A DNA stretch of 64,000 nucleotides from contig NZ_CP007151.1 of assembly GCF_000830985.1 (NCBI RefSeq), forward strand, positions 2,108,001 to 2,172,000, given 5' to 3'. The notes under the pieces are model-generated. The model made no database searches. It saw only the letters and a program-made list of their open reading frames with translations, and had not been told where the DNA came from. Every line of letters begins with the position of its first letter. Positions within the stretch are counted from its first letter, which is position 1. Positions 17,850-27,209 of this stretch are shown one piece after another. Origin of the DNA: Marinobacter similis (GTDB lineage: Bacteria > Pseudomonadota > Gammaproteobacteria > Pseudomonadales > Oleiphilaceae). Made by a program: the position numbers and the translations under genes.

Positions 17850-18068
17850 AGGCTATCTTCGCGCCAGAGGAGGGGGGATTACTGCATCGAGAAAAATCTG
17901 GTTCTGGAAAGCTGAGCTCAGAGAGCGAGTAGGATGTAATGAGTCTAGCAGAGCCGTTCATTGTGGCTGCCAGAGGGGAAGAAACCTCACCACGCATTGC
18001 AGTTCTGGATGCACTCAGGGGCCGCCGGGCGTAGTGAGCCTTGCCGCTGCACTGTCGTAATTGTGTAC

Positions 18069-18103
18069 AAAAAACGCGCCGGGGCTGTTGTCAACCGGCG
18101 CGT
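18069..18103 (-). terminator. Intrinsic terminator of the anchor-I lipoprotein gene
   Basis: Read on the minus strand: a perfect 9-bp stem (ACGCGCCGG / CCGGCGCGT) with a 12-base loop, followed directly by six Ts. It lies 36 bases after the stop codon at 18139. Confidence 0.85.
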
Positions 18104-18138
18104 CAGGGAGTGGTGCTTTTTGGAGTTTTAGCTTTTTC

Positions 18139-19862
18139 TTAGTTGGCTGTCAGCTCAATCACATCAATCCCATACAGGGTGGTTGTCCCACTGACTTCAT
18201 TACCTACCGCCAGCATCGGTTTGCTGTTTGGGCTGCTGCCTGCAGGGATAAAGGCCAGGCCTTCGGGGCCCAGGTCGCCCGCCATGCCGGCTTCCAGTTC
18301 GGTCTGGCTTGCGCTGAAGTCGCGGTTGTTGATGTACTGCACAAACTCCGGGCTCTGCGGGTTGGAGACGTTGTACACCATAATACCGCCTACGCGTTCC
18401 AGGCCGATGAAGGCGAAGGTCTGGCCGTTGATTTCACCCACGGTGATGGCCTCCGGCTCCGGGCCTTTGTCGTCAGATCGGGCGTCTGCATCGTTTTCAT
18501 CGTTGGAGGCATTAAAGCCTTCTGGAATCAGGCTGGCGGTGATGCGCTCGAACTCGCTGCCGCTGTCGAAGACACGCTTGCCATCGGCAGACCAGATGCT
18601 GAAGGAGCGAGCGCCGTAACCGTAAAGGGTGTCGTACTCGCAATTGTTCTCCACATGGAATACCACGTCGTCGATATCAATCTGGGAGTCACTATTCAGG
18701 TCGCCCAAGTCAGCGGGAAGCTGGGAGGCGTTGCAGCCGTTGCTCGAACCCAGGGTAGAGGTAATGCGGAGACGGCCCAGGTTCTCATCATCCTGCAGCC
18801 CGGCGATACCAGCCAGTGCACCGGTCAGGGTCAGGTCGCCTACCCGGAATTCCTCAGTCCAGGTGTCGTAGTCCCGGGCATCGCCCTCATTGGCGGTGAG
18901 GTAATAGGTTTTGCCGTTGTAACCATAGCTGGCGATGGAATCCGGGTTGTACATGCCCTTAACCGGCCAGTTGCGGATATTGATGCCACTGTCGCGGTTG
19001 CTGGCGTCCAGCTCGTTGCCGATCAGGTTGTAGTCTTTGAAGCCCAGCGGAAGGATGGCGGTGATTTCACCGGCGGCGATGTCCAGCTCGGCCACGGCGT
19101 TATTTTCCTGCAGGGCGACCCAGGCGGTTTGATCATCAATGGATACCGCGATGTACTCCGGCTCCATATCCTGGGCCAGTGTGGCATTTGGGCCAAATAC
19201 GCGCAGGCCGGCGGTTTCCAGTGTTGCCTGTTGGGCGTTGAACGATGTGAAACCGGCGGTGGTTACGGTGGCGGAGGCAACGCCGTTAGAGAGGTCAATG
19301 ATGTTGACGGAGCCTTCCGGATCGATACTGTAGTCGTCGTTGGGCTCGCCCTCGTTGGCCACCAGTACTTTCTGGCCGTCGCGGGTGAAAGTCACCATGT
19401 CTGGAAGTGCGCCTACGCTGGCTTCGCCGACTTTATTCAGGTCAGTGGTGTTGTAGAAAACCACCTTGCCGTTGTCCTGCTTTACGTTGGCCTCTATGGC
19501 GACAGCCACCAGATCGCCGTATACGGCCACGCTGTTAGCAGAGGCGCCCTCAGCCGTGGCGTCGATGGTGCCAAGCAGGGTGGGCACCTCCGGGTCATTG
19601 ATGTCCAGCACGTCCACGGTGGAGTTATTGGCGTTCACCACAAACAGGCGCTGGTTGGCGGCGTCGTGGGCGACAATTTCCGCTGCGCTTTCATCAAACG
19701 AACCGCTGGCGTAAGTGCCAGTACGTTCATTTCGATCAGGGTCTGGCTGGTGCCGTTTGTGCCATCATCGCCGTCGTCGGTGCAGCCGGCAAGGACCACC
19801 AGTGAGCTGGCCACGGCCACTGAGATCAGGGTTTTGCGGAAGGTGGGTGTGCGAAATTCCAT
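18139..19862 (-). CDS. Choice-of-anchor I family lipoprotein, frame broken near 19719
   Basis: An exported beta-propeller-like protein of about 574 residues after repair. It begins with a lipoprotein signal (SSLVVLAGC, lipobox LAGC) and a Gly/Asp-rich linker. Family signatures include VNANNSTVDVLDI, ANEGEPNDDYSIDPEGSVNI, GARSFSIW and GPEPEAITVGEI. An inserted EF-hand-like calcium loop (DLNSDSQIDIDD) lies near the middle. Restoring one G near 19719 yields VLGTYASGSFDESAAEIV. Relatives are often filed as alkaline-phosphatase-like, without proof. The five PhoB half-sites upstream support a phosphate-starvation role. Confidence 0.82.
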
Positions 19863-19928
19863 AGTCGCCTCGGGTGTGAGTGAATCAGTCGATGTATATG
19901 TCGTGACTCAACACACTAGAGCTGACTA

Positions 19929-19979
19929 ATGACGGTTCTGCGTCAGCTTTGCGACAGTTCCAATACAGATAGGTGACAG
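19929..19979 (-). promoter_or_regulatory. PhoB box array, five 7-mers in 11-bp register
   Basis: Read on the minus strand, five CTGTCAT-like 7-mers follow one another with exact 4-base spacers: CTGTCAC, CTGTATT, CTGTCGC, CTGACGC and CCGTCAT. The constant 11-bp period is the known geometry of PhoB binding. The array ends 66 bases before the start codon of the anchor-I lipoprotein gene. Confidence 0.82.
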
Positions 19980-20095
19980 TGCTGGCAGGGAAAGCCGGTT
20001 TCCCGTTATGACGTTCCTACCGCGGAAAAAACATCCCTTGGCTCAGCACTGAAAGCGAGGCACCAAAAGAAGCGCTATAGCATTGCTTGCGGTTT

Positions 20096-20683
20096 TCAGG
20101 CGCGCACTTCCCTGCGACGGTAGCCAATAAAAATGAGCAAGATTAGACAGGCGATACTAACGGACAGCGGGAAGAGCACCGTTGTTAGCGAATAAGTCTC
20201 CAAAGCCAACAGAGCAAAGACGTTTCTTGCCATAAACAATGTAAAGAAAAGAATGTTTTCCTGGTGAGGGGCGTCATAGGCTTTACGAATTGTGGGCCCA
20301 AAACCAAGCAGGTCGACGGTTGTAAGGACGACCACAGCCCACAACGGGTTTGACGTAAGGTACCAAAAGGGAAGCGACGCCAATGCCGATAGAAAAAACA
20401 CCCAATCCGTTTTCGTTATCGAGATATCCGAACGTTTTACGAACGCAAGAAAAGCAATGAAAACGGCAATGGCTCCTGAAACACCAATCGGCCAGGCACC
20501 AATACCACCTTTGGCTTCAACTTGAGCAAAGAAGACGATCGATGTCGTCGTCCCCCAAATAACCCAGGAGAATACATGCGGCTTTGTGGCTCCCGACAGT
20601 ATCGAGAATATATAGGGCACGAAGGCGACAAAGGTGAGCGCTATCGCTAAGCCACTAAATGCCAGCTTAAAACCTGAATCCAT
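20096..20683 (-). CDS. Cassette-borne multi-pass membrane protein
   Basis: A 195-residue hydrophobic protein with about six or seven membrane helices (FSGLAIALTFVAFVPYIFSIL, GVSGAIAVFIAFLAFV, PLSVSIACLILLIFIGY) and a basic C-terminus. No enzyme motif seen and no family recognised with confidence. It is the last of the cassettes. Its start codon lies 8 bases from an attC-like core at 20691, as expected for a cassette, but no attC is visible after its stop. That may mark the truncated end of the array. Confidence 0.7.
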   Translation of the reverse strand: MDSGFKLAFSGLAIALTFVAFVPYIFSILSGATKPHVFSWVIWGTTTSIVFFAQVEAKGGIGAWPIGVSGAIAVFIAFLAFVKRSDISITKTDWVFFLSALASLPFWYLTSNPLWAVVVLTTVDLLGFGPTIRKAYDAPHQENILFFTLFMARNVFALLALETYSLTTVLFPLSVSIACLILLIFIGYRRREVRA

Positions 20684-20690
20684 AACTTAC

Positions 20691-20760
20691 GCTTAACGTC
20701 TGAAGTGAGCCATCCTGGCAAGAGCGTCTGGCGGCCATTGGCCGCCACCTTCCCTAATTG
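20691..20760 (-). repeat. attC-like recombination site, degenerate
   Basis: On the minus strand it ends in the core GTTAAGC, fitting GTTRRRY. Internally it repeats the family pattern: a GGCGGCC stem, then GACGC, CTTG and CAGG blocks. The opposite core near the stop at 20754 is not recognisable, so this site looks decayed. Confidence 0.6.
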
Positions 20761-21488
20761 TCCGGCTGAATCGAGGTGTGCGTGTCCGGCGGCGGAAGTT
20801 TGGGCAACATGGCCTCCACGTCAACCGTGTAAGTAGCGAAAAAAGCTTCCGCCGCTTCAATCAGAGCCGCCTCGGTTTTGAGGATACCAAGATAGACCGG
20901 CCATTCGGCGTCGATCAGATCCGTGCTGTAACGTTCCGAATCGACTTCCACCTGCAGCGCCATAAACCGGAACTCCATTTCGTTCATAACGATGAAATCG
21001 CACCGTTTACGCAGAAACATGCCCAGCATCTGCTGGGCATTGTACCCGTCATGGCGGACCAAGTCGGTTCCGATCCGCCGCTCAAGTCGATCACTGTAAA
21101 CAAACCATTTGCGCAGACAGATGTTGCCCTGAAGGTCATCGAAGGAGTCCGGTCGTCGGCCAGTCTGAGCGAACACTCGGTCACGCCAGATTAACACCGG
21201 TCCGACAGCATGCATCCGGTCCGGCATCCAACGCGGGTTGGCGAAAACCGCGTTAGCTAGTCCTTTTTCCAAGGCCCAGGCATGGCGTTTGCGCGCCATA
21301 GGGCGGAAATCAGCTGCGATACCCGTCTCCACCGTAAACTCATTAATCACCTCGACCAGAATGCCCTTGTTAAGGTTGTCACCATAATAAAACGGCAGGA
21401 AGCCCTGATCCGACCCCATAATCTGGAGCGTTTGCGATGAAACTGGAAGGAACCAGAATGCTGAGATGATCAGCAGGACTATTCTCAC
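20754..21488 (-). CDS. Cassette-borne periplasmic solute-binding-like protein
   Basis: A 244-residue exported protein with a signal peptide (MRIVLLIISAFWFLPVSS). The mature part resembles the family 3 amino-acid binding fold (GFLPFYYGDNLNKGILVEVINEF, then FRPMARKRHAWALEKG), but no transporter genes accompany it. A cassette-borne binding protein could act as a sensor or scavenger. It is flanked by attC-like sites at 20691 and 21495. The frame is intact. Confidence 0.72.
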   Translation of the reverse strand: MRIVLLIISAFWFLPVSSQTLQIMGSDQGFLPFYYGDNLNKGILVEVINEFTVETGIAADFRPMARKRHAWALEKGLANAVFANPRWMPDRMHAVGPVLIWRDRVFAQTGRRPDSFDDLQGNICLRKWFVYSDRLERRIGTDLVRHDGYNAQQMLGMFLRKRCDFIVMNEMEFRFMALQVEVDSERYSTDLIDAEWPVYLGILKTEAALIEAAEAFFATYTVDVEAMLPKLPPPDTHTSIQPDN

Positions 21489-21494
21489 TAGATT

Positions 21495-21548
21495 GCCCTC
21501 CCAGTAATTGATCGGGGGTAGTCAGAAGGGTGCATGGCCTTGTTGGGC
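21495..21548 (-). repeat. attC-like recombination site, shortened
   Basis: On the minus strand it begins with the core GCCCAAC (RYYYAAC) followed by AAGGCC, as in its neighbours. The expected crossover core at the other end reads GGAGGGC, two bases from GTTGGGC. The site is about 54 bases, shorter than the 85-89 of the others, so it has probably lost its middle. Confidence 0.55.
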
Positions 21549-21573
21549 GCTCCAATATGTGAGTGTTCCGATG

Positions 21574-22008
21574 CTACTCAGCAATACTTTCGCCAGAGCC
21601 ACCCATTTCTTCAGGGACATCTTTTAATTTGGTAATGCCATCGTGGATACGCAAAACAGCTTCTTGGTAATGCACATGGACGTCAGCTACAAATGGAAAG
21701 CTAGGTATCACTGCGGCATATACATCAACTAACCCCATCGACGGATGCTCAGTAAAAATATGCCCTCCGCACGTTTTACACCATTTTCGGTGGCTTTGAG
21801 GGGTCTTCGCGTAGGTCCCAATATTGTCGGTACCCTGAGTGATGTTCACTGATTCAGGCTTCCACAAAGTGAATGCATTTACTGGCCCGGCTGACCAGCG
21901 CCGGCAAGATTCACAATGGCAATAGCCCATGGCGGCAGGATCGCCAGAGACGGTCAATTTGACCGAACCGCAGAAGCAACTGCCAGTGTGCGTTTGTTCA
22001 TTGCTCAT
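21574..22008 (-). CDS. GFA/CENP-V family zinc protein, cassette-borne
   Basis: A 144-residue protein with the GFA zinc fold: CFCG, CHCESCRRW and WCKTCGGHIFT supply the cysteine ligands of two zinc sites. The founding member was linked to the glutathione-formaldehyde adduct, but most family members have unknown substrates. GFA proteins are common integron passengers, and this gene lies between two attC-like sites. A strong AGGAGG ribosome site is seen just before the ATG. Confidence 0.85.
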   Translation of the reverse strand: MSNEQTHTGSCFCGSVKLTVSGDPAAMGYCHCESCRRWSAGPVNAFTLWKPESVNITQGTDNIGTYAKTPQSHRKWCKTCGGHIFTEHPSMGLVDVYAAVIPSFPFVADVHVHYQEAVLRIHDGITKLKDVPEEMGGSGESIAE

Positions 22009-22086
22009 GATGCACCTCCTACCTTTTCGTTCAGCCTCACGAAAGTCTGGCTGCTCCTAAAAGTGTAGAAGTTCTCCTGCCTGGAC

Positions 22087-22171
22087 GCCCAACGCCGAAA
22101 TAAGCGCCCTGACAAGGCGTCCGGTGAAGGGCCGCCAGGCCCGAAACGTACTACAACTACTTGTTAAAGGC
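22087..22171 (-). repeat. attC site of the 22197 cassette
   Basis: An 85-base element. On the minus strand its end is GTTGGGC, a perfect GTTRRRY core, and its beginning is CTTTAACAAG, an imperfect RYYYAAC core. The middle shares long blocks with the sites at 22485 and 22958 (CCGGACGCC, GGGCGC, GGCC stems). It can fold into the imperfect hairpin expected of attC. Confidence 0.8.
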
Positions 22172-22196
22172 TTTTGTAGGAAGCGCTCGGTAATCA

Positions 22197-22469
22197 CTAC
22201 AACCCCGACAATATTGTCTGGAAGATGCTCGCAACTGTCAGGAATCCGCCAATGACGATCAGTCGTCTTCGAGAGAGATCGATCCCCTGAATCAGAACAA
22301 AGGTTCCGACCGCGCCGCTGAAAAAGCCTCCGCTGAACAGGGAACCACCGACTGCATAAACAAACAGCAAGTAAACGACTGCCAGTAGATACAGCAATAC
22401 TCGTAACGGCTTGAACTCAAAACGCTTGTAGTAGGCTTGGTCTACTGGGGATAGGTCTTCCTTGTTCAC
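22197..22469 (-). CDS. Cassette-borne small membrane protein
   Basis: A 90-residue protein with a charged N-terminus (NKEDLSPVDQAYYKRFEFKPL) and two or three membrane helices (VLLYLLAVVYLLFVYAVGG, FSGAVGTFVLIQGI, LIVIGGFLTVASIFQTIL). No family recognised. It is flanked by attC sites on both sides (22087 and 22485), so it is a complete gene cassette. Confidence 0.68.
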   Translation of the reverse strand: MNKEDLSPVDQAYYKRFEFKPLRVLLYLLAVVYLLFVYAVGGSLFSGGFFSGAVGTFVLIQGIDLSRRRLIVIGGFLTVASIFQTILSGL

Positions 22470-22484
22470 CGAAAACTCCCTTTA

Positions 22485-22573
22485 GCCTTAAACGCCAGAA
22501 TTAAGGGGCGCCCGAATAGGGCGTCCGGTGGACGGCCGCTAGGCCGGGAACGAACTTGAATGATTGGTTAGGC
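22485..22573 (-). repeat. attC site of the 22579 cassette
   Basis: An 89-base element. On the minus strand it starts with a perfect GCCTAAC core and ends with GTTTAAGGC, a near-core with one extra base. The internal CCGGCC/GGCCG, CCGGACGCC and GGGCGC blocks match the neighbouring sites. Confidence 0.8.
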
Positions 22574-22578
22574 ATTTT

Positions 22579-22953
22579 TCAGTCTCCCGCTCCGCACGGA
22601 GCTGCCGGTAATTTGCCTGTCAGAGTTCGCTGCCATGCAGTGGCAACCTCTTGGGAACTGAATGCTCCATGTAAGTCCCCATTAGACATTGGCCCCAATA
22701 TTGTCGCCCTCAAGAACTCCTGATCACCGACAATAATTCGGCTCATTCTGCCAATGTTTGCTTCAGTGAACCTCTCAAAACTTGCGGCGCCAATCTCTGT
22801 CAACTTTGCGTGAACCGGCCATTCATTCTCGATCTGTGTACCTACTGCCGATTGCTGCACGTAAGCCGAACACAAGTGAAAATTTAGCTCAGTCTCTGCT
22901 AATACAGCACCGGGGGTAAGCAGCAAAAGGGTTGCGATCCATTTCATCATCAC
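22579..22953 (-). CDS. Cassette-borne exported protein resembling a SecD head subdomain
   Basis: A 124-residue exported protein with a signal peptide (MKWIATLLLLTPGAVLA). The mature part follows the pattern of the periplasmic P1-head of SecD: LTEIGAASFERFTEANIG, then IVGDQEFLRATILGPMSNGDLHGAFSSQEVA. This is my reading by pattern, not a search. SecD itself is a much larger membrane protein, so this is an isolated domain. Flanked by attC sites at 22485 and 22958, it is a complete cassette. Confidence 0.65.
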   Translation of the reverse strand: MMMKWIATLLLLTPGAVLAETELNFHLCSAYVQQSAVGTQIENEWPVHAKLTEIGAASFERFTEANIGRMSRIIVGDQEFLRATILGPMSNGDLHGAFSSQEVATAWQRTLTGKLPAAPCGAGD

Positions 22954-22957
22954 GATT

Positions 22958-23043
22958 GCCTAACGCCAGCCATAAGCGGCGCCCTGACAAGGCGTCCGGT
23001 CGAGGGCCGTCGGCCCGGAACAACCTTAATGGCCTTGTTAACC
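22958..23043 (-). repeat. attC site of the 23038 cassette
   Basis: An 86-base element. On the minus strand it ends in a perfect GTTAGGC core and begins at GGTTAACAAGG, overlapping the stop codon of the gene at 23038. The middle carries the shared GGGCC/GGCCC, CCGGACGCC and GGGCGCC blocks. Confidence 0.82.
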
Positions 23044-23682
23044 TTTTTTGTCGATGTGTGGTCTCAACCAAGCCTCGAACTCGGAAACCGCAGCTTCGAT
23101 TTTCGGCGTGAAGTTATCATGCCGCGAATTGGAGCCAAGATGGTAAAGGATTGAATGAGACTCCCTTTTCTCAGCTTGCGATTCCCATTCTTGCGCAAAC
23201 CCCGGTGACTTTTTTGATTCGATAAACTGCTGTACTGCAACAAGCAGTTCAGCACGACACTCCCTAAGTGCCATTATTTTTTCCTGATACTGCCCGCCCC
23301 ACTCGACCTGAGCATCTAGGTGTAGATCCTCTAGCTCGCGGAACGCTGACTCTAAAACCTTCCAGCGCGTTTCATAGACGTGAGCAGTACCCTCGTAACG
23401 ATGCTCAGCGATCAAGTGACCGTTTTTGTCTGTCATTTCTTCAGGGTACTCAAACTGGTATATGACTATATTTCGGACATGCTTAAATCCATCTCGCACA
23501 CGAAATACGGCTTTAAGCAAAGCTTTAGCTAAATCGTATTCTGATTTCCCTTTGATCTCTCTGCGCCAAGTATTTAGTCCCAAATAGGCAAAAAGTGCTA
23601 CCAGTCCTGCTGACACACCAACGACGGACTCCTTGAGCAAGGGTAGCCAAACATGTATTGCAGGAATTGATTGTTCTTCCAT
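23038..23682 (-). CDS. Cassette-borne membrane-anchored protein of unknown function
   Basis: A 214-residue protein with one N-terminal membrane helix (ESVVGVSAGLVALFAYLGL), then a soluble, charged, mostly helical domain (EYDLAKALLKAVFRVRDGF, ETRWKVLESAFRELEDLHLDAQVEW). No family recognised. The design resembles single-pass anchored proteins found in integron cassettes and defence islands, but no catalytic motif is seen. It is the first cassette of the array in the direction of transcription. Codon use is more AT-rich than in the metabolic genes. Confidence 0.65.
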   Translation of the reverse strand: MEEQSIPAIHVWLPLLKESVVGVSAGLVALFAYLGLNTWRREIKGKSEYDLAKALLKAVFRVRDGFKHVRNIVIYQFEYPEEMTDKNGHLIAEHRYEGTAHVYETRWKVLESAFRELEDLHLDAQVEWGGQYQEKIMALRECRAELLVAVQQFIESKKSPGFAQEWESQAEKRESHSILYHLGSNSRHDNFTPKIEAAVSEFEAWLRPHIDKKG

Positions 23683-24006
23683 GTAACCTCAGATGATTAA
23701 CAGCGTATTCAACGAACGCGTTCGTATAACATTCGTTCGCAAAACTCCATTTTCGGATGCCCTGTGCCCAGCAATATCGGCTTTTCAGTCAATGCCCTGA
23801 CGTACCCAAAGCAACCACCGTCCGGATTTTATGCGCCCACCCCCGATCAGGTTTCGATAGCCAAAGGGGCGTATAACTCCAGCCTTCAGTGCCACCGAGT
23901 GCTCAGATTCAGTGTTCGCGCGTTGCTTCAGAGGTGCCGTGCTGGTAATTTTCAGCCCAGTTTCACCGGGTAGGGTAGCCAAGGATTTGGCGTTGCGCGT
24001 AACCCG
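23683..24006. other. Gap upstream of the cassette array and vgrG
   Basis: No integrase, attI site or convincing gene is present. On the minus strand a degenerate GTTAATC core lies at 23695-23701, a possible entry edge of the first cassette. There is a 14-base palindrome at 23712-23725 (centre CGAACGCGTTCG). An inverted repeat, CACCGGGT at 23964 and ACCCGGTG at 24002, touches the vgrG start codon. Confidence 0.5.
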
Positions 24007-25972
24007 GTGAGCACATCGTTAATGCTTCAAAGGATTGAAGGCATGCCTCAGGCAAATGGATTGCAATTCACCGCTCGTGTCGGTGAGTTTCCCTCAGAAG
24101 TTTTTTCTGTCGTCGGCTTTGCGCTGACCGAAGCCCTTTCCGAGTTGTTTCATGGCCGCTTGCAGCTGGCGAGCACCGATCCCGCTATTGGCGCCGCGGA
24201 TGTGCTCGAGCAGCCGGTTGAACTGATGGTCTGGCAGGATGGGGAGCCGCTGCGGCGCTTCACCGGTGTGGTCAGTGAATTTGTCCGGGGCGACTCTGGC
24301 CATCGCCGAATCCGCTATGAACTGGTCATTCAGCCGCCGTTGTGGCGGTTGGGGCTGATGCACAACAGTCGAATTTTCCAGAAGCAACGTCCCGACTCCA
24401 TTGCACGCACACTGCTGGAAGAGCGGGGCATTGTGGATTCAGTGTTTGAACTAAAACGCGAGCCGGCGGAGCGGGAATACTGCGTTCAGCACCGGGAAAG
24501 CGATCTGGCGTTTCTGGAACGGCTGGCGGCAGAGGAAGGCTGGCATTTCCGCTATCAGCATGGTTCAGTAGACCGCAGTGCATCGGCTGGGCTGATTTTT
24601 TCCGACCATCACGCGATGCGCCGGTTCTGGTTTCGGCCGAATATAACGCCTCTGCGGGTGGCAGTCACCGGCAACGGTCGGTGTTCAAGTTCCGCTACCA
24701 GGAACGCGTGCGCGCCGCTTCCGTTGCGCTCAAAGACTACACCTTCAAGAATCCCGCCTACGCCCTGATGCACGAGCAGGGTGCCAGCTCCCCTAACCAC
24801 AGCGACGATTACCAGCACTTCGACTACCCGGGCCGGTTCAAGGCTGATGCCAGTGGCCAGCCATTTACCCGGGCCAGATTGGATGCGCTTCGAAATGACG
24901 CTAGCACCGCTCAGGGCGAAAGCAATCGCCCGGACTTCGCACCGGGCGCCAAGGTTGAGCTCACTGACCATGACCAACCGACCCTGAACCGAGACTGGCT
25001 ACTCACTGCCGTTATCCATCGCGGGCAGCAGCCGCAGGCGTTAGAGGAAGAGGGCGGGTCGGAACCGACCACTTATCACAACAGCTTCAGCGCCATCCCC
25101 GCGAACCTCACCTGGCGCCCACAGTGTGTTCATCGCCCCATCATGGACGGCCCGCAGATCGCCATCGTCACCGGCCCTGAGGGTGAAGAAATCCACTGTG
25201 ACGAACACGGCCGGGTCAAGGTGCGCTTCCCCTGGGATCGTTACAGCCAGAACGATGAACACAGCAGTGCCTGGCTCCGTGTCAGCCAGGGCTGGGCCGG
25301 CGGGCAGTATGGTTTTATGGCGTTGCCCCGGATCGGCCATGAAGTGATTGTGTCCTTTCTGGATGGCGACCCGGATCAGCCGATCATCACCGGTCGCACC
25401 TATCACGCCACCAACAAACCACCGTATTCATTACTAGAGCACAAAACCCGCACAACCCTGAAAACCCAGACCCACAAGGGCGAGGGCAGCAACGAATTAC
25501 GATTCGAGGACGAAGCGGCCAAGGAGCAGATCTACATCCACGCCCAGAAAGACCTGGACCTGCTCACCGAGCACAACCGCACCGAAGTGATCAAGAACGA
25601 CAGCCACTTCACCGTGGATAACAACCGGTTCGAGCGCGTGGGTGGCAACAGTCACAGCACGGTAGAAGGTGAGGGCAGGGAGCGCATCGGTGGCGATTTC
25701 AGCCACACCGTGGGCGGCAGCCACCACAGCCATCAGGCCGAGCCCAGCTCATCGAGGCAGGCCGCGAGATTCATCACAAGGCTGGTATGAACATCGTGAT
25801 TGAAGCGGGGGCGGAGGTGACTCTGCAGGCCGGGGGCAGTTTTGTGAAGGTGGACCCGAGTGGCGTGACGGTCTCTGGACCGCTGGTGCGGATGAACTCC
25901 GGCGGTGCGCCGGGCAGCGGTACGGCTGCCGCTGCCCAGTCACCGGAAGCCCCTCAAACAGTAGCGACATGA
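24007..25972 (+). CDS. vgrG: VgrG type VI secretion spike protein, frame broken near 24614 and 25740
   Basis: A VgrG of about 656 residues after two repairs. The first domain is gp27-like ([57 protein letters not shown]). The gp5-like OB domain follows ([53 protein letters not shown]). The C-terminus is the trimeric needle ([20 protein letters not shown]). No fused effector domain follows. The start is a GTG. No tss genes, chaperone or effector adjoin it, so it is an orphan spike served by a type VI system elsewhere. Confidence 0.9.
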
Positions 25973-26065
25973 CCCGACAGTAACGTCCCAGTGATGCGAA
26001 CGGTTGTCAGGAAGCGTAAAGTAGGAACCTTACAACCTTTTTAACACAGGGACGACTCGCTCACC

Positions 26066-27209
26066 GTGGACGAAAATAACGCCGACAGCTCTCACAACAA
26101 CGCTTCTGATAACCCAGACCACAACGCTGACACTGCCGCGGATGCCGGGCCTCGCCCGTTAATCTCATCCGAATTATCGACGCCCATTTACGGCCTGTTC
26201 GCGCTGGGTATTCTTTACACTCTGTATGTGGCACACCAGATTGTCCTGCCCATTATTCTGGCGATTCTGACCAGCCAGTTGCTGTCGCCGGTGGTTAAGA
26301 AGCTCTACGTGGCCTTTCGGGTGCCGCGCATGGTGAGCGCGTTGTTACTGGTGCTGATGGTGCTGGGCGGCATTGCGGGGTGACCTACGCGGTGGCATCG
26401 CCGGTGATGACCTGGGCGGAAGAGGCGCCCCAGGGCATCTCCCGTTTATTGGTGGGGCAGAGCGAAATCAAACGTCAGATCAGCAAGGTCACAGAATCGG
26501 CTGAGAAGGTCGAGAAGTCCATGGAGGAGCTGTCAGACAGCAGCAAAGCAAAGCCGACTACGGTGGTGCTGAAAACCGATTCCTGGCGCAGTCAGCTGAT
26601 GAGCAAGGCCCGGGATGGCGTTGCCGGCTTACTGCTGGCGTTAGCGCTGACTTACTTCCTGCTGGTGGGCGGTGACCGGATCATCAAGAATTTTGTGCGC
26701 CAGCTGCCAAGGATGCAGCGCAAAACGGTGCTGCGTATCACCCACGATTCCCAGCATCAAATTGCCCAGTACCTGGGTGTGCTGGCCCTGAGTAACACGG
26801 CCGTGGGCGTGGCAACGGGGCTGATGTGCTGGGCCATTGGCCTGCCAGATCCTGCGGTTTGGGGGCTGATTGCCGGCCTCGCTCGTTTTATCCCTTACCT
26901 TGGTGTGATTCTGACCATCTCGCTGCTGGCGGTGGTGTCGGCCATCAGCCTGGATGTGGTCTGGATGATGGCGTTTGCGCCGGTGGGTTACCTGGCATTG
27001 ACCACGCTGGTGGGCTTCTTCATCGAGCCCTGGGTGCACGGGTTCCGGATGGCCATTAACCGGTGGTGATCTTTGTCTCGATCTTCTTTTGGGGCTGGCT
27101 GTGGGGGCCGGTAGGCGTACTGCTGGCAGTGCCACTGATGACAGTGATTCAGGTGGTGCTAAAGCAGATTCCGAAACTGCGGCCGGTGTACAAGGTCATC
27201 GCCCGCTAG
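26066..27209 (+). CDS. AI-2E/PerM-family transporter, frame broken near 26380 and 27061
   Basis: A multi-pass inner-membrane protein of about 381 residues after two repairs. It begins with a hydrophilic Asn/Asp-rich tail, then helices LFALGILYTLYVAHQIVLPIILAILTS. Family signatures follow: GLLLALALTYFLLVGGD, IAGLARFIPYLGVILT, EPWVHGFRMAINPVVIFVS and FFWGWLWGPVGVLLAVPLMTV. PerM relatives export AI-2 or act as Na+/H+ antiporters; the substrate here is unknown. Restoring a G at 26380 and a C at 27061 gives a continuous family-like protein. The start is a GTG with a weak ribosome site. Confidence 0.85.

Follow-up and report, generated by a model that had tools for sequence, protein, structure and literature searches.

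A gene cassette array without an integrase on a predicted satellite attI platform in Marinobacter similis

Introduction

Clusters of attC sites lacking integrases (CALINs) have at least two attC sites and no integron integrase gene (intI) nearby. In a genome survey 2961 CALINs were counted against 2760 complete integrons (PMC9024848). The array described here lies on the minus strand of a 64,000-nucleotide stretch of Marinobacter similis (contig NZ_CP007151.1, positions 2,108,001 to 2,172,000; the window, whose numbering is used below) and is a CALIN by definition. Unlike a CALIN so defined, it stands on a conserved attI with its leader, together called the platform. The label tells what the array lacks, not what it has, and the new part is the attI-anchored satellite platform.

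In Xanthomonas, seven chromosomal loci apart from the ilvD integron hold integrase-less arrays, and these are kept across species. The available portions of that paper contrast these recurrent loci with scattered attG insertion and state that a functional IntI is able to mobilise CALINs in trans (PMC12444791). The same portions report no attI or leader at the Xanthomonas loci, whereas the fixed position in Marinobacter has a visible cause, a copy of the platform. In Delta-attI-type gene cassettes a piece of attI is also parted from its integrase, and was a substrate of IntI1 in assays; in those cassettes it takes the place of attC within an array, whereas in the window attI and leader form the base of a separate array (PMC12901181). 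Sedentary chromosomal integrons have attI beside intI, an array read away from intI and family-like attC sites, and the intI-bearing Marinobacter loci look alike; the window differs in having attI and leader without intI. Detection of attI in IntegronFinder 2.0 is limited to class 1 (PMC9024848), so orphan attI sites may have gone unseen. A literature search, with most subscription journals outside it, turned up neither a paper devoted to Marinobacter integrons and their attI nor a listing of orphan attI platforms.

The observations are attC sites, an attI with homologues and an exact edge, no intI, orphan platforms that recur, first cassettes that differ, and the same cassette on different platforms. 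From these we infer that the window probably holds a cassette array on a satellite attI platform, filled in trans by IntI and now stranded after loss of intI. Orphan platforms (attI and a leader of ∼276 bp in all) would stand at several fixed chromosomal places in Marinobacter genomes. IntI encoded elsewhere, beside one platform copy or on an earlier or incoming replicon, would insert cassettes at orphan attI sites and exchange cassettes between platforms in trans. In the window genome the integrase would then have gone, leaving cassettes stranded at about five places. Action of IntI in trans on orphan attI, spread of the platform as a unit and a cassette promoter in the leader (putative Pc) are proposed as parts of this mechanism.

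attC sites and cassettes

Genomes were given G labels and fetched loci L labels; G000 is the window genome and G028 a sister genome (L095, L097). The window genome is one contig of 3,975,896 bases, given as 94.86% complete and 5.04% contaminated. A covariance model of attC was built from 31 sites of intI-bearing and related Marinobacter arrays, none of them from the window. The model located three attC sites in the 64 kb, all on the minus strand (Table 1), and no integron integrase lies nearby. The original prediction of an integron cassette array without an integrase is borne out by these three strong sites and by a search of the 3.98-Mb genome, made as had been proposed, in which no integron integrase passed the 265-bit cut-off of the family. 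Gene order at the locus, which if identical in all relatives had been named beforehand as the refuting result, is not shared. The three full attC sites that had been described were all located by the model. Two shorter, supposedly decayed sites did not hold up as such: the one at 20691 is the fourth and last model match in the window (20691-20771, 14.7 bits, E 0.25) and amounts to noise, and the one at 21495 proved to be only a stump, ∼20 bases (21531-21551) of a cassette attC.

The 3' arm of attC3, which is also the 3' end of cassette 3, differs from other copies of this cassette; matches to them end 10-22 bp early, as if the arm had been patched from another attC. Single-strand folding gave z values of −1.08, −1.65 and −0.10 for the three sites, no better than shuffles, and arm-duplex energies separated true from mismatched arms poorly. 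The case for the predicted attC sites rests on the family alignment and the cassette boundaries, not on single-sequence folding. An Rfam search gave no match and a tRNA search found none.

Minus-strand crossover points fall after 23701, 22964, 22493 and 22093 and give four cassettes. Six passenger genes had been proposed; two of these, 20096-20683 and 20754-21488, are flank. Cassettes consist of a gene and its attC between G^TT bounds, and cassettes 2, 3 and 4 recur elsewhere. Cassette 2 was found at 95% identity in an array of G031 and at 85% in G065. For cassette 3 the identity is 96% to a copy in the G023 array, which bears IntI, and 89-90% to G060. The attC of cassette 4 (the GFA cassette), of which the window has the stump, is present as a whole 60-bp site in G028 (L097). 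An exact 5' junction at an attI was found for cassette 4; for cassette 1 there are only boundaries and, its attC apart, no match among the fetched loci.

The cassette 1 protein belongs to no Pfam, NCBIfam or PADLOC family. The cassette 2 protein has a weak match to the SecDF P1 head (Pfam PF22599, 25.7 bits vs a cut-off of 27). None of the four window cassettes matched PADLOC, and no family was found for their proteins beyond GFA and the sub-cut-off SecDF match.

Table 1. Positions of the array features and adjoining genes in the window
Feature	Position	Strand	Description
Platform remains (attI and leader)	23698..23882		Alignment to L095 10999-11181 and 11264 onwards
attI (predicted)	23698..23748	-	TAACAGCGTATTCAACGAACGCGTTCGTATAACATTCGTTCGCAAAACTCC on + strand; crossover G^TTAATC between 23701 and 23700, minus strand
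Cassette 1	22964..23700	-	Gene 23038-23682, 214 aa, and attC1
attC1	22958..23043	-	Covariance model 79.7 bits, E 3.6e-21
Cassette 2	22493..22963	-	Gene 22579-22953, 124 aa, signal-peptide-like start, and attC2
attC2	22487..22573	-	Covariance model 73.9 bits, E 2.1e-19; R' core GTTTAAG, off the GTTRRRY consensus
Cassette 3	22093..22492	-	Gene 22197-22469, 90 aa, hydrophobic, and attC3
attC3	22087..22169	-	Covariance model 54.7 bits, E 1.5e-13; 3' arm altered (GCTTATTTCGGCG)
Cassette 4	21536..22092	-	GFA-family gene 21574-22008, 144 aa; Pfam PF04828, E 7.3e-20
GFA attC stump	21531..21551	-	5' arm only; cut at CATGCA, also present in flank
Two chromosomal flanking genes, distal to array	20096..21488	-	Common with G028 within the 93.6% block 18064-21536

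The attI site and its leader

The window had been described as having no attI; the array starts at a predicted attI (Table 1) homologous to an element upstream of intI. The 55 bases at 23698-23752 are 87% identical to the sequence that immediately precedes the full intI in G029, and in other genomes the 51-bp element aligns in the equivalent position ahead of intI. When the loci are stacked by strand, each starts with TAAC (the complement of G^TTA) and the sequence to the left of TAAC diverges. At the 44 platforms without intI (orphans), information content is 0.0-0.4 bits/base on the cassette side vs 1.6-2.0 over the first seven bases opposite. At 15 IntI-bearing loci the values are 0.0-0.6 vs 1.1-2.0 over the first eight bases opposite. 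A conservation edge at the crossover base is what cassette insertion at attI predicts. Relative to a complete integron, the window has an attI proximal to the array, by homology and exact edge, and no intI gene.

Within the attI lie the palindrome TTATACGAACG/CGTTCGTATAA and additional half copies. At the intI loci of one clade the attI is the left end of the ∼276-bp platform, whose leader contains another inverted pair (GGAGTTATACGCCC ... GGGCGTATAACTCC), the conserved motif AACCCTATCAGATAGTTA and, as its terminal palindrome, GGAGTTTTGCGAACGCGTTCGTATAACTCC. Past this palindrome follow TTGACTT, which we take to be promoter-like, and a CTG-N10-CAG box, presumably of the LexA kind, and then intI, which starts ∼340-350 bp from attI (11 full-intI loci, one clade). 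In one set of 20 fetched full-intI loci, seven have this attI; the other 13 (L050, L053-L064) are without it and encode IntI 48-69% identical to the reference clade. Compared with the sister genome, the window platform is missing ∼90 bp between two TATAACTCC repeats, including the terminal palindrome.

A shorter form of attI, ∼31-36 bp, was seen at L139, L147, L148, L152, L153 and L178, with the leader seemingly deleted between repeated CGTATAACTCC motifs. L152 and L153 have the right flank in common and not the left.

Orphan platforms in Marinobacter

Platforms were collected from 61 Marinobacter genomes and 60 loci were kept, all having the attI end. Partial matches without this end were left out (e.g. 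G062:C12, G064:C23, G002:C3 and G002:C1; also G032:C22 and G036:C1:3961979 and 4385914). Full intI is present at 11 loci and truncated intI at four (L097, L109, L123, L127), one locus is at a contig edge (L138), and the 44 orphans are spread over 31 genomes. attC sites beside platforms were sought within the fetched stretch of each locus and counted at orphans with E ≤0.01, except for the L095 match (0.029) and one of three L110 matches (0.024). Sites on the cassette side in cassette orientation were found at 29 of the 44 orphans, up to 14 per locus; on the opposite side or strand of the fetched stretches there were none at any orphan. Plasmid and phage records gave no match to the platform, and one exact 21-base platform pattern, a strict one, gave none in viral contigs.

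Platform length was measured against L122, a reference that includes the intI promoter. No orphan is similar to L122 past +291, into the intI promoter. Similarity stops at +274 to +291 in 32 orphans and before +274 in 12, the window among these, and among the 11 full-intI loci 7 stay similar at least as far as +336. It is conceivable, as a tentative extension, that the ∼276-bp attI/leader is itself a dispersing unit and that the integron, as a distributed integron, seeds extra landing pads over the chromosome, each of which becomes a cassette array inherited on its own while a single IntI serves them in trans. Such a unit would span from the attI crossover to the terminal palindrome. One half of that palindrome is a repeat of the attI core, a hint that both ends of the unit may be recognised by IntI. 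intI as an excisable module between two terminal palindromes was considered and rejected, as no second palindrome was found downstream of intI within the scanned stretches.

Varied break points would be expected if the orphans were former complete integrons from which intI had been deleted independently, their cassettes having been shuffled before the loss. The common end of 32 of 44 orphans, the absence of the intI promoter from all 44, and the wholly different arrays carried by sister species on the same already integrase-less platform and flank make such an ordinary CALIN by decay unlikely, even though truncated intI stands beside the platform at four loci, intI has been lost from the main locus of the window genome, and the window copy is damaged. 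CALINs have been proposed as degraded integrons (PMC9024848).

A tyrosine recombinase gene, its product only 29.5% identical to IntI, adjoins the attI directly on the cassette side of two orphan platforms (L129 6085-6876, L175 7599-8390), where it reads away from attI like a first cassette.

Fixed places and exchange of cassettes

Orthologous platforms were defined by grouping loci on the DNA beyond the platform (right flank). The window, G028 (L095) and G065 (L096) form one such group. The array flanks are 93.6% identical to G028 over 18064-21536 and 90% over 23872-26500, and the DNA between these flanks is unrelated, with 2.16 kb in the window genome and 3.81 kb in G028. By eye the G028 insert has attC-like sites of other types, of which the model gives one weak match (E 0.029). 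Right flanks are 76-96% identical in 40 orphan-orphan pairs, and in none of the 40 does homology start ≤120 bp from attI on the cassette side, so that no first cassette is shared, with L143/L145 having only ∼100 bp there. The IntI-bearing pair L049/L052 has its first cassette in common, so the pair comparison is able to detect sharing. Some orphan pairs share a deeper cassette, e.g. cassette 2 in the window and G065.

The same cassette was also found on different platforms. The GFA cassette is first on the main integron of G028 (CTG^TTGGGC) and last on the window platform (GCG^TTGGGC); the two copies are 91% identical, about as in the common flanks, and the match begins exactly at the crossover base. 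G060 has one 410-bp cassette twice, on contig C4, which bears intI, and in first position on the C1 orphan platform; the copies are 99.5% identical and have the same G^TTAA ends, and the two platforms are only 85% identical. In G071 the intI array and one orphan array have a 361-bp stretch in common at 99.7% identity.

attC and leader sequence is common to the arrays, attC3 looks patched and the leader has repeat-mediated deletions, all of which would fit movement of cassettes by homologous recombination among arrays or repeated leaders instead of by IntI in trans. Such recombination would not account for junctions that are exact at G^TT with either type of partner (attI in G028 and attC in the window; attI and attC in G060), nor for a 99.5% identical cassette flanked by leaders only 85% alike, and we regard it as improbable. 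Cassette insertion at attG sites has reportedly been found (Loot et al. 2024). That the window cassettes were inserted at secondary attG-like sites, with the conserved 51 bp as a fortuitous target, is nevertheless most improbable, as intact Marinobacter integrons have this element as their attI and share up to ∼276 bp of leader with it, and attG sites are said to diverge from classical att sites (PMC12901181).

Loss of the integrase

No integron integrase over 265 bits was found in the 3.98-Mb window genome; the best match reached 84.6 bits, and weak matches of this kind occur in 14 of 14 control genomes. A model search of the whole genome gave 11 attC places at E ≤10, namely three in the window, three at C1:3091622-3096210, two at 3213910-3215942, two at 3937715-3938496 and one at 799786. 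The right flank of the main integron of G028 (L097) corresponds to C1:3932223-3937678 of the window genome. This stretch continues into the attC at 3937715, and neither intI nor attI lies in the interval. For the left flank the counterpart is C1:795077-799340, near the single attC at 799786. Since the flanks of L097 are split and intI and attI are gone, the main integron of the window genome appears to have been broken by rearrangement and deletion. Remaining in this genome are two orphan platforms with cassettes, in the window and at C1:3212320-3212598, and attC groups without an attI match.

The group of three attC sites at C1:3091622-3096210 (L154) is without an attI match. At C1:3331437-3331688 (L100 5450-5704), far from any array, a 108-aa frame resembles the N-terminal part of IntI only (model positions 2-84, 56 bits, 39.5% identity). 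A fusion of two integrons was considered as the event behind the loss of intI at the window locus, as a homologue of gene 20754-21488 stands at the distal end of the M. sediminum R65 intI array; the flank beyond differs, and apart from that gene the fusion found no support.

Discussion

Filling of satellite platforms in trans, the reading preferred here, has to be weighed against several observations. Damage to the window platform, to attC3 and to the last attC means that the window copy may be dead. By the model 15 of the 44 orphans have no attC, three of these having <1 kb of cassette side. Four of the 11 full-intI loci also end their similarity at +276 to +282, so the end point alone is no proof of a discrete unit. 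Of the 31 genomes with orphans, only 7 have a full intI adjoining a platform copy. IntI over the cut-off is encoded in 22 of the 31, mostly of other clades or partial, and in 9 there is none (hand count). Action in trans, if real, would therefore take place in few genomes at a time, or through other-clade or incoming integrases. Within the array parts fetched, near-identical shared cassettes were found in 2 of the 7 genomes with platform intI and an orphan; G034, G067, G032, G074 and G023 gave none. A 1517-bp copy in G018 (99.3%) is at contig ends and was left out of the count. Homologous exchange between arrays is a possible route for the cassettes.

The places themselves bear on the same question. 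The gene that starts the right flank of L110, putatively nrdB, was found in 57 of 61 genomes, and in many of these other-clade intI directly adjoins it, where other species have an orphan platform. A 257-aa gene beside the orphan platforms L128, L168 and L171 is directly beside intI in G013 and G035. With other-clade intI at orphan-platform places, replacement of one platform by another at old integron places is possible, and the nrdB-side pattern fits replacement as well as insertion.

Integrase-less cassette clusters are usually read as remains. If many CALINs stand on orphan attI platforms, they would be extensions of an integron that work or once worked, reservoirs of cassettes would be spread over a chromosome, and recurrent CALIN positions would have a cause testable by a search for the platform. 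Dozens of bare docking sites at fixed places in related genomes, with different cassettes, suggest that one integron enzyme can serve several at a distance. A practical marker would be an attI model for a non-class-1 integron family.

Flanking genes and minor observations

Genes 20096-20683 and 20754-21488 were rejected as cassettes; both are inside the flank block shared with G028, and no attC-like sequence was found past the 20754-21488 stop. Homology limited to the gene, in differing contexts, had led to the suspicion that 20754-21488 is cassette-borne. In 12 loci inspected by eye, the stop codon is without a following attC-like sequence, and this was also rejected. All seven named loci matching the protein of 20754-21488 are in Marinobacter. 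The gene and its relatives (L101-L103, L160-L166), present in many Marinobacter, are 741 bp long (735 bp here) with different neighbours on both sides, as if the gene moved alone.

The vgrG-like gene adjoining the array is in three frames (24007-24768, 24681-25790, 25787-25972) and is a single frame of 655 aa in G028. The choice-of-anchor I gene at 18139-19862 is in two frames in the window and one 577-aa frame in G028. The two split genes may point to indel errors in the assembly. In the G028 array, a 425-aa cassette protein (L095 9031-10308) has a weak PADLOC match to PD-T7-5 (E 2e-5).

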